Both the position numbers and the translations under genes were made by a program. This document shows, in pieces, positions 31,438 through 35,616 of a stretch of DNA of 36,129 nucleotides; position 1 is the first letter of the stretch, and every line of letters starts with the position of its first letter. Source of the DNA: a virus; IMG/VR virus record IMGVR_UViG_3300037504_000493, positions 1 to 36,129 of that record. One strand, 5' to 3'. The notes beneath the pieces are model-generated. The model did no database searches. It was not told where the DNA came from and saw only the letters and a program-made list of their open reading frames with translations.

Positions 31438-31451
31438 CAAATAAAACGCAC

Positions 31452-31539
31452 GAGAGACCCTAAATTTTTAGTCTCTCCTGCCCCGCCAGCTTTTTTTGGT
31501 GAATTCAACACCTTTTGTTTATCTGGCGGGGTTAGGGAG
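31452..31539 (+). promoter_or_regulatory. Paired hairpins in a 123-base gap
   Basis: GAGAGA and TCTCTC with an inner CTAAA/TTTAG make hairpin A (31452-31477). CCCCGCCAG (31481-31489) pairs perfectly with CTGGCGGGG (31523-31531) as hairpin B, with GGTG/CACC inside its loop. CTCC of arm A' can instead extend B through GGAG (31536-31539), so the two are partly exclusive. T7 lies inside loop B, not after a stem. An A-rich leader then reaches the ATG at 31561. Confidence 0.6.
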
Positions 31540-31560
31540 GTTAAACTTAAATTTAAAAAA

Positions 31561-32002: not shown

Positions 32003-32299
32003 ATGAACGAAGAACGCTGGGATTATATTGCATCAATGCTTTATTCTTACTTAGAAAAAGAGGATGCGGATAAAATTTTAAAAGAAATTAAGGGGTGTGT
32101 TAAAAAGGAAGGTGGAAAAATGAAAAAAAGAATTCTTTGCCCTAAGTGCGAAGGGAACGGTAGCCACGAAGTTCTTTTTTCTGGTGAGATGTTTTTAGTA
32201 ACCGCCGGTGTTCCTATGATAAGAAAATCCGTTGAATGCAAGGTTTGCGAAGGAAAGGGATATCTTGAGGAGGAGCACAAACTTGACAAAACAAGGTGA
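32003..32299 (+). CDS. DnaJ-type zinc-finger-like protein
   Basis: The 98-residue protein has a helical N-terminus and two CxxCxGxG motifs, CPKCEGNG and CKVCEGKG, separated by a 30-residue beta segment. This is the repeat of the DnaJ central zinc domain; two rather than four copies are typical of small stand-alone versions in phages. A second in-frame Met (KMKKRILCPKC) is an alternative start. Its last codons overlap the next promoter. Confidence 0.65.
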   Translation: MNEERWDYIASMLYSYLEKEDADKILKEIKGCVKKEGGKMKKRILCPKCEGNGSHEVLFSGEMFLVTAGVPMIRKSVECKVCEGKGYLEEEHKLDKTR

Positions 32300-32310
32300 A
32301 AAGGTAAGAT
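32283..32310 (+). promoter_or_regulatory. Promoter of replication module 1
   Basis: TTGACA, 16-base spacer, TAAGAT. With the next four bases it is nearly identical to the promoter at 32886 (2 differences over 32 bases, counting AAGGTGAAA and GGTAAGATGAAA). Overlaps the 3' end of the preceding gene. Confidence 0.8.
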
Positions 32311-32327
32311 GAAACCATAAATACGGT

Positions 32328-32444
32328 CTGGAAGCCGTCATTCAACGAAATAACAAAGCTTTTGAAATTCCATGCTCTGCAACAACCCTTTCGTTGAGGT
32401 TCTTCCAGGGCAGGGCATTGGATTTCAAGGGCTTTTAATTTTTT
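32328..32444 (+). promoter_or_regulatory. Attenuator-like leader RNA of replication module 1
   Basis: Arms lie in the order S1, S2, S1', S2'. S1: CTGGAAG (32328-32334) and TCAACGAAA (32342-32350). S1': TTTCGTTGA (32389-32397) and CTTCCAG (32402-32408). S2 (32355-32380) pairs with S2' (32410-32435) at 25 of 26 positions including four wobble pairs, followed by U-rich TTTTAATTTTTT. S2 is a terminator-like stem. S1 cannot coexist with the full S2 because the connecting loops are 4, 8 and 1 bases. Confidence 0.75.
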
Positions 32445-32452
32445 AAAAAAAC

Positions 32453-32869
32453 ATGAAAGAAAAACCAAGTTATTACGCAATCTTAACCGCTGAAGTAAGG
32501 TATGCAAAAAACCTCACGATGTTTCAAAAAATTCTCTATGCCGAGATGACGGCACTATCGGAAAAAGAGGGGTTTTGTTGGGCTAGCAATAAATATTTTG
32601 CCGAGCTTTACGATAAATCAGAAAAATATATCAGCAGCACAATTTCTGATATGAACAAAAAAGGATACATAGACACATTTATAAGCCAAAAAGACGGGAT
32701 AACCAGAAAGATATACATTGGAGCTACCCATAAAAATCTGGATAGCTACCCAGAAAAATCTGGGGAGACCTACCCAGAAAAACCTGAACATAATATTACA
32801 AGTACTAATACTAAAAAAGAACGGGAACCCTCTTACGAGGATTCCCCTGTCACTTATAAGACAAAGTAA
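32453..32869 (+). CDS. Replication-associated winged-helix protein, module 1
   Basis: The 138-residue protein holds YYAILTAEVRYAKNLTMFQKILYAEMTALSEKEGFCWASN, KYFAELYDKSEKYISSTISDMNKKGYI and a short basic beta strand, the N-terminal helix-turn-helix domain of phage replication initiators (DnaD-like/HTH-36). It lacks the long C-terminal part of its neighbour at 33056. The last residues (SYEDSPVTYKTK) recur in that neighbour. It follows AAAAAAACATG without a Shine-Dalgarno motif. It may be a truncated paralogue that competes with or regulates the full initiator. Confidence 0.7.
   Translation: MKEKPSYYAILTAEVRYAKNLTMFQKILYAEMTALSEKEGFCWASNKYFAELYDKSEKYISSTISDMNKKGYIDTFISQKDGITRKIYIGATHKNLDSYPEKSGETYPEKPEHNITSTNTKKEREPSYEDSPVTYKTK
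32829..32866. repeat. Palindrome pair, copy 1
   Basis: CCTCTTACGAGG, 12 bases, CTTATAAGACAAA. The same two palindromes with the same 12-base distance recur at 33462-33499 inside the neighbouring replication gene. Both lie in coding sequence. Confidence 0.6.
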
Positions 32870-32885
32870 AAAAGATTATCGAGAC

Positions 32886-32913
32886 TTGACAAAATAAGGT
32901 GAAAGGGTAAGAT
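32886..32913 (+). promoter_or_regulatory. Promoter of replication module 2
   Basis: TTGACA, 16-base spacer, TAAGAT, a near copy of the promoter at 32283. Starts the second leader RNA near 32920. Confidence 0.8.
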
Positions 32914-32918
32914 GAAAA

Positions 32919-33042
32919 TGCAACAAATTAGGATTCAAACTATAAACAAAGACCTATTCAACTGGCGGTTTGCTCGCAAATCGCCGAGCATAGAGGGTTT
33001 GAATCCCCCTTGTTGCACCGTCAGTTGAGTGGGTCTTTTTTT
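32919..33042 (+). promoter_or_regulatory. Attenuator-like leader RNA of replication module 2
   Basis: Same arm order as at 32328. S1: TGCAACAA (32919-32926) and GGATTCAAAC (32931-32940). S2: 32948-32964, AAAGACCTATTCAACTG. An inner 9-bp hairpin (32964-32985) closes on CTCG. S1': GTTTGAATCC (32997-33006) and TTGTTGCA (33010-33017). S2': CAGTTGAGTGGGTCTTT (33022-33038), running into T7. S1 gives 8+10 bp, S2 17 bp with two wobble pairs. The terminator stem is clear. Confidence 0.78.
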
Positions 33043-33055
33043 AATACAAAAAAAC

Positions 33056-33889
33056 ATGGAAAAAACACTAAGAAAAGAGGGGGTACCGTTTGTGCAGGTC
33101 GCAAACGAAGTACTAAATAGTGAAACTTTAACATTCAAAGCCAAAGGCCTTTATGCGTTTATTGCATCAAAGCCGGACGGGTGGCAATTCTCCATTTACC
33201 GGATAGCGCTACAAACAAAGGAGGGGAGAGACTCAGTTTCAGCGGGATTAAAAGAGTTAGAAGATGAGGGATGGCTAGTTAGGATGCGGAAAAATGACGG
33301 AAGAGTGGAGTATGTTTTATATAATTCCATAAAACCAGCATCAAAAAACCCCACAACTAAACCAAAACCGGAAAATCCCACTGTGGGAAAATCCCAAAGT
33401 GGGAAAATCCAACCAGTAAGTAATAAAGAGAATATAGCAATAAAGAAGAGTATAGACGACACCTCTTACGAGGCGTCGCCTACCACTTATAAGACAAAAC
33501 AAAAAATATATAAACAAAGAGGATTAGATTATAAACCTAAAAAGTCTCGTTTTATAGAAGTAGGAAAGGTAGTTGAAGAGTTCCGCGCCGCCGCCAGCGC
33601 CAGAGGATTTAACCTCCTAAAGTCGGACGGCCAACGGAATAAAAGAATCCGAGGACAGATTGAGGCGCTCTTGATAGCGGGTAAAGACCTAAAAGGCCTT
33701 ATAAATTGGTGGTTTAGAGGAGAAGGTGATTATTGTGGGTACGCTCCCGAAAACCTTTTTACAGAAAGAACTGTCGAAACATACCAGGTTAAAAATAAAA
33801 AAAAGGAAGTTAAAGATACAACACCAGACTTCCAAAAATTAAAAGAGAAATGGAAATCACAAAACAAGAACCAGAGAAAAAGGTCTTAG
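33056..33889 (+). CDS. Replication initiator / helicase-loader-like protein, module 2
   Basis: The 277-residue protein starts with a winged helix (FVQVANEVLNSETLTFKAKGLYAFIASKPDGW, then IALQTKEGRDSVSAGLKELEDEGWLVRM). A Pro/Lys-rich linker follows, then a C-terminal helical domain (VVEEFRAAASARGFNLLKSD; IEALLIAGKDLKGLINWWFRG). This layout fits DnaD-like phage replication proteins that bind the origin and load helicase. Its gene overlaps the DnaB-type helicase gene by 40 bases. The ATG at 33056 follows AAAAAAAC; an upstream ATG inside the terminator stem is rejected. Confidence 0.75.
   Translation: MEKTLRKEGVPFVQVANEVLNSETLTFKAKGLYAFIASKPDGWQFSIYRIALQTKEGRDSVSAGLKELEDEGWLVRMRKNDGRVEYVLYNSIKPASKNPTTKPKPENPTVGKSQSGKIQPVSNKENIAIKKSIDDTSYEASPTTYKTKQKIYKQRGLDYKPKKSRFIEVGKVVEEFRAAASARGFNLLKSDGQRNKRIRGQIEALLIAGKDLKGLINWWFRGEGDYCGYAPENLFTERTVETYQVKNKKKEVKDTTPDFQKLKEKWKSQNKNQRKRS
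33462..33499. repeat. Palindrome pair, copy 2
   Basis: CCTCTTACGAGG, 12 bases, CTTATAAGACAAAA, matching copy 1 at 32829 in both palindromes and spacing; the 12 bases between differ. It encodes SYEASPTTYKTK. Confidence 0.6.
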
Positions 33890-35118
33890 CCACCTTATAT
33901 CTCGATCCCAATAAAATATCCGGCCTGAAACTAAAACCGGAGCACTTCACAACAGAAGAACACGGCAACGTGTACGACACAATAAGGCAAGGATACCTTA
34001 ACGGGCTTAAAAAAGATGACATAAGAGAAGATGTCCGCAAACTTGGATTCACCTCAAGCTACTTCACCGAGGCGTCCATGATAGACTCCGACTTTCTTTT
34101 CAGTTGTGACAAAGTATTAAAAAATTATCACTACAGGGAATTGCACCGCTCCTTATCAGAATCTCTCCAGGAAATTGCCACCTCTCCAAGAGATATTCAG
34201 GAAGTGACAAAAAAAATACAAATAAAACTCTTAGAAAACCAAATTGAAAACAAGGAAACCGAAACCCCAAGCCAAATTCTAAAAGAAATTGAAAAAGATC
34301 AATTAGAGTATTATAATAAAAAAGCTCAAGGGTTAACTTGTCTTGGGATCCCAACCGGCTTTCAGTTCCTGGATGATGCTATTGACGGCTTAAGGCCCGG
34401 CCACCTCTGGCTAATAGGAGGCTACACCGGCACCGGAAAATCAACATTCATGCTTCAAATTCTGAAAAATATCCTAGAAAGCTCTTATAAAGTATCCTTA
34501 TACTCCCTGGAAATGGGAGGTAAAGACATAATAACAAGGATACTAGGGATGGAATCAGGTCAAAATGGCCAACACCTAATTAAGGATGTTGATGATGACT
34601 TTTTTCATAGAGAATACGAAAAGGCAGCAGAAAGAATCAACGCCTACCGGCTTTCCATTCACACAAAAAAAAGAGATATTGAACAAATAGCTCTATCGAT
34701 GACAGAAGAAGCCGAAAAGGGAGTTGACGTCTTTGCTCTAGACTATGCGCAAAACCTTGACTATGGAAAAAAGTCAGAATATGAAGCTCTTACTTACGCC
34801 GCTAATGTTCTTCAAGACGTTGCTAAACTAACCAACAAGCCAATCATCCTTTTATCGCAAGTAAACAATGAATCAGTTAAAAACAAATCTGAGGTTATGG
34901 GCTACAAAGGAACTGGCGCCCTTCCTCAAGTTGCTGATTTAGCCCTTGAACTAGCCAGGACAGAAACCCAAGAAGAACTTGAAGAAAAAAAGGCCTACGG
35001 CAATTACAATTATGAAGTGATGGCCAAAATTAGGAAAAATAAACACGGTATAACCTTTAATAAACTACTGGACTTCGATCCAGTAACAGGACAATATAAT
35101 GAAACATTCCCAAACTAA
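33850..35118 (+). CDS. dnaB: DnaB-type replicative helicase
   Basis: The 422-residue protein unwinds DNA at the replication fork. It has a DnaB-like N-terminal helical domain (EKKVLATLYLDPNKIS, EEHGNVYDTIRQGY) and a RecA-like motor: GIPTGFQFLDDAIDGLRPGHLWLIGGYTGTGKSTFM (Walker A near residue 191), YSLEMGGKDIITRIL (H1a), VFALDYAQNLDYG (Walker B, H2) and IILLSQVNNES (H3). The final MAKIRKNKHG matches H4. It is the only recognisable replisome enzyme; host polymerase must be used. Confidence 0.9.
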   Translation: MEITKQEPEKKVLATLYLDPNKISGLKLKPEHFTTEEHGNVYDTIRQGYLNGLKKDDIREDVRKLGFTSSYFTEASMIDSDFLFSCDKVLKNYHYRELHRSLSESLQEIATSPRDIQEVTKKIQIKLLENQIENKETETPSQILKEIEKDQLEYYNKKAQGLTCLGIPTGFQFLDDAIDGLRPGHLWLIGGYTGTGKSTFMLQILKNILESSYKVSLYSLEMGGKDIITRILGMESGQNGQHLIKDVDDDFFHREYEKAAERINAYRLSIHTKKRDIEQIALSMTEEAEKGVDVFALDYAQNLDYGKKSEYEALTYAANVLQDVAKLTNKPIILLSQVNNESVKNKSEVMGYKGTGALPQVADLALELARTETQEELEEKKAYGNYNYEVMAKIRKNKHGITFNKLLDFDPVTGQYNETFPN

Positions 35119-35144
35119 CCGTTTTGTTTGTTGGCTAGAAGCTT

Positions 35145-35384
35145 ATGAAAAAACTAAAAGAGTGGCACAAATCAGTTTGCGAAAAAGCAAATTATAAATG
35201 CCAAAAATGCAGAAAAGATTTTAGTTATCCTTGCTACTTTGACGGTGACGTTAACCAATACGTAACGGGCCATCATGTTAAATCGCAGGGTTCTCATCCG
35301 GAACTTAAATTTGAGGTAAGCAATGGGAGGTGTTTGTGTCTGGAATGCCACAACGGCGTTCATTCTGGCAACTTGACACTGTAA
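35145..35384 (+). CDS. HNH endonuclease
   Basis: The 79-residue protein has CQKCRKDF, then YVTGHHVKSQGSHPELKFEVSNGRCLCLECHNGVHSG. The HH pair, the Asn in NGRCLC and the final H make the HNH site, and two CxxC pairs bind the structural zinc. Small HNH enzymes in phages either help packaging or act as mobile homing nucleases. Here it stands alone, 27 bases after the helicase gene, so homing or an accessory function is more likely than packaging. Confidence 0.85.
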   Translation: MKKLKEWHKSVCEKANYKCQKCRKDFSYPCYFDGDVNQYVTGHHVKSQGSHPELKFEVSNGRCLCLECHNGVHSGNLTL

Positions 35385-35403
35385 AATACACACAACAAAA
35401 GAC

Positions 35404-35431
35404 TTGACATTTTTTTTCAATCTGCTACACT
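35404..35431 (+). promoter_or_regulatory. Early promoter, extended -10 type, copy 3
   Basis: TTGACA, 16-base spacer, TACACT with TGC upstream; shares CTTGACATT and TCTGCTACA with the promoters at 27559 and 29648. Transcript start near 35438. Confidence 0.8.
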
Positions 35432-35439
35432 ACATTTAA

Positions 35440-35499
35440 AAGCAGGGGTGCATTAACGAGCGCTCTATTCATCCCCCTGCTTAGAGCGCTTTTTAATTT
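35440..35499 (+). promoter_or_regulatory. Compact attenuator or pseudoknot leader RNA
   Basis: S1 AAGCAGGGG (35440-35448), S2 AGCGCTCTA (35459-35467), S1' CCCCTGCTT (35474-35482), S2' TAGAGCGCT (35482-35490), then TTTTTAATTT. Both stems are perfect 9-bp pairs, interleaved, sharing one U. Short stems and loops of 10 and 6 bases would allow a real H-type pseudoknot. S2 with its U-tract is a terminator-like hairpin just upstream of a small gene. Confidence 0.75.
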
Positions 35500-35505
35500 A
35501 AAACT

Positions 35506-35616
35506 ATGAACCAAAGAGACCTCTACATTCAAAAGAGAGAACTGGAAATCTTGATGGAAAGAGAGTTGATATTTGGAGGCAAGCTGTACAGCCCCAACCA
35601 AAAAAGCATTACCTAG
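35506..35616 (+). CDS. Very small helical protein
   Basis: A 36-residue frame (MNQRDLYIQKRELEILMERE...) follows the compact leader. It is charged and helical with a short Gly-rich end. It is the first gene after the promoter at 35404. Either a real micro-protein or a leader peptide whose translation affects the leader structure; the frame starts after the terminator stem, which argues for the former. Confidence 0.5.
   Translation: MNQRDLYIQKRELEILMERELIFGGKLYSPNQKSIT

Follow-up and report, generated by a model that had tools for sequence, protein, structure and literature searches.

Crossed RNA helices in the leaders of phage replication genes point to a putative transcription attenuator with exchangeable sequence

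Introduction

Leader-peptide attenuators of the trp type carry a short open reading frame (ORF) across alternative hairpins that end in a terminator. In the attenuators of pT181 repC and pIP501 repR, the terminator is kept off by a pre-emptor pairing with its 5' arm, and an antisense RNA tips the balance (PMC5703833, PMC4981023). Another article reports that the processed CI RNA of P4 pairs with two complementary sites, up- and downstream of it, and prematurely terminates transcription of the P4 replication genes, and that the terminated leader IsrK of Gifsy-1 works in trans, activating translation of its own read-through mRNA (PMC4825925). Here we analysed, by purely computational means, IMG/VR virus record IMGVR_UViG_3300037504_000493 (36,129 bp; this whole stretch is referred to as the window), in which three leaders carry two RNA helices, S1 and S2, whose 5' arms (S1, S2) and 3' arms (S1', S2') are interleaved in the order S1-S2-S1'-S2'. 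On balance, we read each leader as a bistable transcription attenuator, in which S1, formed first, prevents formation of the terminator S2.

As in pT181 and pIP501, a terminator-like hairpin lies between the promoter and the start of a replication gene, an alternative pairing would keep it off, and a copy-number logic is plausible. Unlike in those systems, the helices of the phage leaders cross and share almost no sequence, and the pre-emptor does not pair with the 5' arm of the terminator. The leaders resemble P4 CI as a phage element in which, as proposed here, replication genes are stopped by RNA-driven premature termination in the leader; they differ from P4 CI and P1 C4 in having one crossed pair, since the long specificity arms occur a single time in the window, where the long S1' arms have one complementary partner only. 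IsrK, whose target is its own read-through transcript, offers a precedent for self-feedback; however, it activates translation, whereas the phage leaders would repress by termination. No description of crossed, non-overlapping attenuator helices was found in the literature searched, the coverage of which was partial.

Results

Anatomy and folding of the window leaders

The leaders sit near the right end of the window, each after a sigma70-like promoter and ahead of an A-rich ATG without a Shine-Dalgarno (SD) sequence. In all three, two non-overlapping helices with the crossed order of arms lie between promoter and ATG (Table 1). The arms were read from the sequence and then located with a strict ungapped scan. 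The arms of S1 and S2 are separate, with at most 1 nucleotide (nt) common to both, and S1' is flush against S2' (gap of 0-1 nt) in every case; S1 of leaders 1 and 2 consists of two nested segments with an internal loop. The helices begin no more than about 10 nt from the predicted transcription start. An initial annotation of this DNA had placed S1 at or near the 5' end of the transcript, which stands except that S1 of leader 1 begins not at the predicted +1 but some 10 nt downstream of it.

Ordinary terminators, with S1 read into the sequence by chance, might give the same picture, and loose scans do return many crossing pairs in shuffled sequence too; a permissive duplex scan was dropped, the chance pairs being too numerous. 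With the strict scan, crossing pairs in which the weaker of S1 and S2 scored at least 22 occurred 0.33 times per window, both strands included, in 40 dinucleotide shuffles. The window leaders scored 24.5 (leader 2), 22 (leader 3) and 21.5 (leader 1, inner S1 segment only), all between promoter and ATG. Because any terminator already supplies S2, S1 was also tested by itself, everything but the S2 arms being shuffled: a flush S1 as strong was obtained with p=0.0015, 0.0005 and 0.004 for leaders 1, 2 and 3, respectively. When a promoter was required, the strict scan gave 16 matches (some repeated) in real sequence vs. 0 in shuffled sequence, and 46 other viral contigs (412 kb) contained no element with an ATG that reached a score of 65. 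These results, together with the two-sided compensatory changes described below, largely refute chance, which we consider extremely improbable. The scan and the shuffle tests thus confirm the interleaved order that the initial annotation had recognised in three leaders of unrelated sequence, and the plan is present in several other phages as well, again with unrelated sequences. A search of the window against Rfam gave no match at the gathering score; over leaders 1 and 2 there was nothing but sub-threshold noise.

Growing transcripts of leaders 1, 2 and 3 adopted the S1 fold first, with minimum free energies (MFE) of about -23, -36 and -13 to -16 kcal/mol, and the full-length MFE structure was the S2 terminator fold (-41, -49 and -21.6 kcal/mol, respectively). 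The z-scores of the terminator fold were between -3.7 and -5.4 and, as in intrinsic terminators, a stable hairpin directly precedes a U-tract. Since S1' lies 0-1 nt from S2', there is no linker that would allow a full pseudoknot of such long helices, and the two folds were therefore taken as alternatives; from this geometry we infer that they are mutually exclusive. The earlier suggestion that S1 is completed first and could sterically block S2 agrees with the folding of the transcript prefixes, and the flush, non-overlapping arrangement fits exclusion.

Compensatory changes in a near relative

The DNA of IMGVR_UViG_3300037504_000626 (L003) is 90-97% identical to the window along the leader region, but has no similarity to it over leader 1. 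At that place, L003 contains an ORF of 86 amino acids (aa), a second promoter and a different leader with the same S1-S2-S1'-S2' plan. Despite its divergence, this replacement leader is recognisable as a copy of leader 2: the central hairpin TGGCGGTTT..AAATCGCC..GCAT and the 5' AUGCAA are retained. Of the 21 aligned pairs of S2, 8 show two-sided compensatory changes and 2 one-sided changes, and 1 is broken; of the 15 pairs of S1, the inner part of which was aligned by position, 8 changed on both sides and none is broken. Altogether, 16 of the 36 aligned pairs changed on both sides and 1 was broken. Between the mutually homologous leaders of L171 and L173, each of the two helices carries a single two-sided change. 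Compensatory changes are therefore present in both helices, and the lack of covariation on which the initial annotation had staked its idea was not what we found. In silico, cross-binding between the L003 copy and leader 2 amounted to -2.2 and -2.5 kcal/mol, as compared to -12.1 and -22.3 kcal/mol for self-binding.

A side observation concerns the 86-aa ORF of L003 (479-739, in the region L003:440-790), which lies behind the leader 1 promoter and has no Pfam match. On either side of it lies one copy of a 14-nt inverted repeat (AAAAAGTCAAGGGC / GCCCTTGACTTTTT), the 3' copy overlapping the next -35 box; the repeat would form a terminator-like stem with the whole gene in its loop. A small ORF at L247:1241-1426 (MW202566), with a long inverted repeat (AAAGTAATCCCACCA / TGGTGGGATTACTTT) at its start and end, resembles this arrangement.

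Leaders of the same plan in other phages

Further leaders were sought among relatives of the terminase, the full records of those relatives and the relatives of one D5-type helicase. Twelve more leaders with the same plan were obtained from other contigs, some of them mutually homologous (L169/L172, L171/L173). The curated set of 16 covers few independent families and was assembled in part with the help of the crossed plan itself; only the per-leader S1 test, the covariation and the count in the helicase family are independent of the search. The S1 test with S2 fixed was passed by 14 of the 16 curated leaders. Terminator-fold z-scores ranged from -2.5 to -6.9, the prefix before S2' folded into S1 in most of the leaders, and S1' was flush with S2' in nearly all of them. 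In the family of D5-type primase-helicases, 7 of 9 members have a crossed leader, directly upstream in 6 and one small ORF upstream in L170. The genes downstream of the relatives' leaders encode Prim-Pol/D5_N/DUF5906 primase-helicases, a TOPRIM/CHC2 primase, HTH_36-like proteins and, for L055, a portal; L055 is doubtful and stays in the curated tables despite failing the S1 test.

Other searches added no leaders. A pattern search for the central hairpin returned 47 contigs, which apart from L003 are about what chance predicts, none being convincing; these were used as background. The promoter pattern had no match in viral contigs, a profile scan for the helicase gave no new contigs, and relatives of the first HTH_36 protein were abandoned as a source, the leader position being coding in nearly all of them. 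L013 (minus strand, ~414; nested stems) and L044 (a nested stem without a U-tract) were not counted as crossed leaders. The distant HTH_36 relatives L129/L130 (locus 5001) have, about 60 nt before the ATG, a plain terminator-like hairpin with a T7 tract and a small competing hairpin, GGCAATATTGCC. On the minus strand of L068, from ~5171, three helices are interleaved (a b c a' b' c') before a TOPRIM/CHC2 primase gene.

The position of the leaders before replication genes and their general logic are those of pT181 and pIP501, where an antisense RNA from the opposite strand would bind the leader, block S1 and let S2 terminate, a partner that the initial annotation had taken into account. Opposite-strand sigma70-like promoters, however, scored like shuffled sequence in nearly all leaders (L167 alone stood out, at 1 in 40), and for this reason an antisense RNA is not favoured; moreover, S1 and S2 do not share arms. 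We regard this explanation as very unlikely, and the analogy holds for the logic only. That such a promoter does not stand out, and that the long arms occur nowhere else in the window, would suit a partial terminator or a structure protecting the 5' end that is unregulated, giving fixed read-through, delayed translation or message stability with no signal in trans. On its own, this would not explain the exchange of specificity on a retained scaffold between near-identical phages, nor why S1 stays crossed and flush with S2', and it appears to us quite unlikely.

AUG codons near the predicted transcription start

At strong sigma70-like promoters of these phages, ATG triplets are most frequent at precisely 7 nt past the -10 hexamer (16 vs. 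about 3 at most other offsets), hence many transcripts probably begin with AUG and leaderless mRNAs seem to be common. Promoters with this ATG placement occur across the relatives' loci, e.g., L173 (~3160), L090, L100 and L121. Among the curated leaders, 10 of 16 have an ATG 5-8 nt after the -10 hexamer that opens an ORF of at least 14 codons, including a 36-codon ORF in leader 2 that is absent from the initial annotation. In the helicase family, several upstream frames end no more than about 12 nt from the main ATG, and that of L170 continues into the main ORF.

These features are consistent with a translation-linked attenuator or coupling device, in which a ribosome loaded leaderless on the 5' AUG would, by being there or by where it stands, decide whether S1, S2 or neither forms, and might reinitiate at the adjacent SD-less main ATG. 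A short ORF overlapping alternative helices also recalls the trp-type attenuators, although here the helices share no arms and the start would be leaderless. However, the remaining 6 leaders (leaders 1 and 3 of the window, L094, L022, L068 and L055) have no ATG near the predicted +1, the frame lengths are mildly unusual only (P between 0.09 and 0.48 each), and the encoded peptides are not alike. Because of the 6 leaders without it, an upstream ORF was rejected as a general trigger. As an account of the whole set, control by translation seems unlikely, but translation may be part of the story for some leaders.

Features and genetic context of the window

Table 1. Coordinates of the leader elements and associated features in the window.
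Feature	Position	Strand	Description and basis
Promoter, leader 1	32283..32310	+	TTGACA 32283-32288, 16-nt spacer, TAAGAT 32305-32310; consensus score
Leader 1 S1 5' arm, two segments	32328-32334, 32341-32350	+	Scan, folding, shuffle test
Leader 1 S2 5' arm	32355..32380	+	Scan, folding
Leader 1 S1'	32389-32398, 32402-32408	+	Ends 1 nt before S2'
Leader 1 S2', terminator-like	32410-32435, T-rich tract to 32443	+	Sequence, scan, folding
Gene behind leader 1	32453..32869	+	HTH_36, 138 aa, SD-less A-rich start; Pfam PF13730 2e-8
Promoter, leader 2	32886..32913	+	TTGACA 32886-32891, 16-nt spacer, TAAGAT 32908-32913
Possible leaderless upstream ORF, leader 2	32918..33028	+	AUG near predicted +1, 36 codons + stop; shuffle P=0.16
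Leader 2 S1 5' arm, two segments	32919-32926, 32931-32940	+	Folding, shuffle test
Leader 2 S2 5' arm	32948..32969	+	Scan, folding
Leader 2 central hairpin region GGCGGTTTGC..GCAAATCGCC..GCAT	32963..32992	+	Common to the L003 replacement leader
Leader 2 S1'	32997-33006, 33010-33017	+	Flush with S2'
Leader 2 S2', terminator-like	33017-33038, U-tract to 33042	+	Sequence, scan, folding
Gene behind leader 2	33056..33889 (ATG 33056)	+	HTH_36, 277 aa; Pfam PF13730 1.6e-5
Promoter, leader 3	35404..35431	+	TTGACA 35404-35409, 16-nt spacer, TACACT 35426-35431
Leader 3 S1 5' arm	35441..35448	+	Scan, folding, shuffle test
Leader 3 S2 5' arm	35458..35467	+	Scan, folding
Leader 3 S1'	35474..35481	+	Flush with S2'
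Leader 3 S2' and T-run	S2' 35482-35491, T-run 35490-35494	+	ATG at 35506

The proteins encoded in the window include a P22-like portal, a GpA-type terminase and a DnaB-like helicase, the gene of which follows the HTH_36 gene behind leader 2; a tyrosine integrase was not found among them. Against 50,697 annotated phage records, the portal matched only those of a TM7 (Saccharibacteria) phage (26% identity) and of a spring-water phage (23%), and no annotated phage had DNA similarity to the leader region. To judge from sequence, the host is likely a Patescibacteria-type bacterium, with tiny cells.

The two HTH_36 genes look like a duplicated pair: the promoters of leaders 1 and 2 are 94% identical over 34 nt (32281-32314 vs. 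32884-32917) and a C-terminal stretch is repeated (32829-32876 vs. 33462-33509, 83% over 48 nt), whereas the intervening leaders show no alignment. Behind leader 3, the ORF (35506-35616) encodes 36 aa as compared to 61 aa in L003, the window being one A shorter in an A-run, which may reflect either a real frameshift or a sequencing error. Elsewhere, in an intergenic region (31440-31560) upstream of an A-rich ATG that has no SD sequence, long inverted repeats (GAGAGAC/GTCTCTC; CCCCGCCAG/CTGGCGGGG) overlap one another; no U-tract follows the last arm.

Discussion

From the anatomy of the leaders, its recurrence, the compensatory changes and the order of folding in silico, we infer a course of events in which termination, the default state and the trigger are predicted steps. 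S1 would close once its 3' arm has left the polymerase; the 5' arm of S2 would then be enclosed in the S1 loop, with S2' not yet transcribed. S1' being flush with S2' and the helices long, both could not stand fully together. S1 appears too stable to open within the second or so before the polymerase clears the U-tract, so that the default, as estimated from folding energies and not by simulation, would be read-through into the replication gene. If S1 were kept from closing in that interval, S2 would form and transcription would stop.

The first candidate for such a trigger is the terminated leader itself. The S2 fold would leave both strands of S1 mostly unpaired and available for binding to the 5' arm of S1 in a copy still being made; the result would be a homotypic negative feedback on the replication genes, rising with genome number. 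A ribosome on the AUG close to the predicted +1 is the second candidate; a protein might also act, or there may be no signal at all. The exchange of specificity on a retained scaffold speaks for a partner that recognises sequence, and since no matching sequence other than the leader was found, we propose self-feedback. Homotypic binding between nascent and terminated leaders (-6 to -22 kcal/mol) exceeded heterotypic binding in 6 of the 7 leaders tested; this is a matter of consistency only, as the arms of any hairpin can do so. In its full form, the proposal would describe a family of self-sensing attenuators, in which the terminated leader displays both S1 strands and drives further termination of copies of its own sequence only. 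Each leader type would thus sense its own copy number and define an incompatibility (superinfection) group of its own, the crossed-helix scaffold being fixed and the specificities that it carries hypervariable and swappable. We put this forward tentatively, as a possibility that is more likely wrong than right.

Several points weigh against the attenuator reading. Start sites and termination are predicted, the kinetic default is estimated, and what would open S1 is a list of candidates. The covariation comes from two homologous pairs (the L003 copy with leader 2, and L171 with L173). L108, whose S1' is 7 nt from S2', and L055 (p=0.16) fail the strict S1 test; L166 and L168 have no leader although they belong to the same helicase family; and some relatives (L171, L173) have a weak U-tract. 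As to generality, the two annotated phages with related portals, from TM7 and spring water, have no convincing crossed leader. The term phage-wide, used in the initial annotation, was also an overstatement: the window carries three leaders and most relatives with an identified leader carry one.

The attenuators compared here exclude one structure by sharing sequence with the other, whereas the crossing helices of these leaders seem to do so with hardly any common sequence; such a design lets the sequence of both helices vary freely. A crossed plan that is retained while the sequence changes completely points, at the level of sequence, to a so far undescribed kind of RNA switch with interchangeable specificities. 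If this is true, the leaders would be naturally evolved, mutually orthogonal transcription switches, and would offer a first handle on the timing of replication, and possibly on mutual exclusion, in the phages of a largely uncultured bacterial group.

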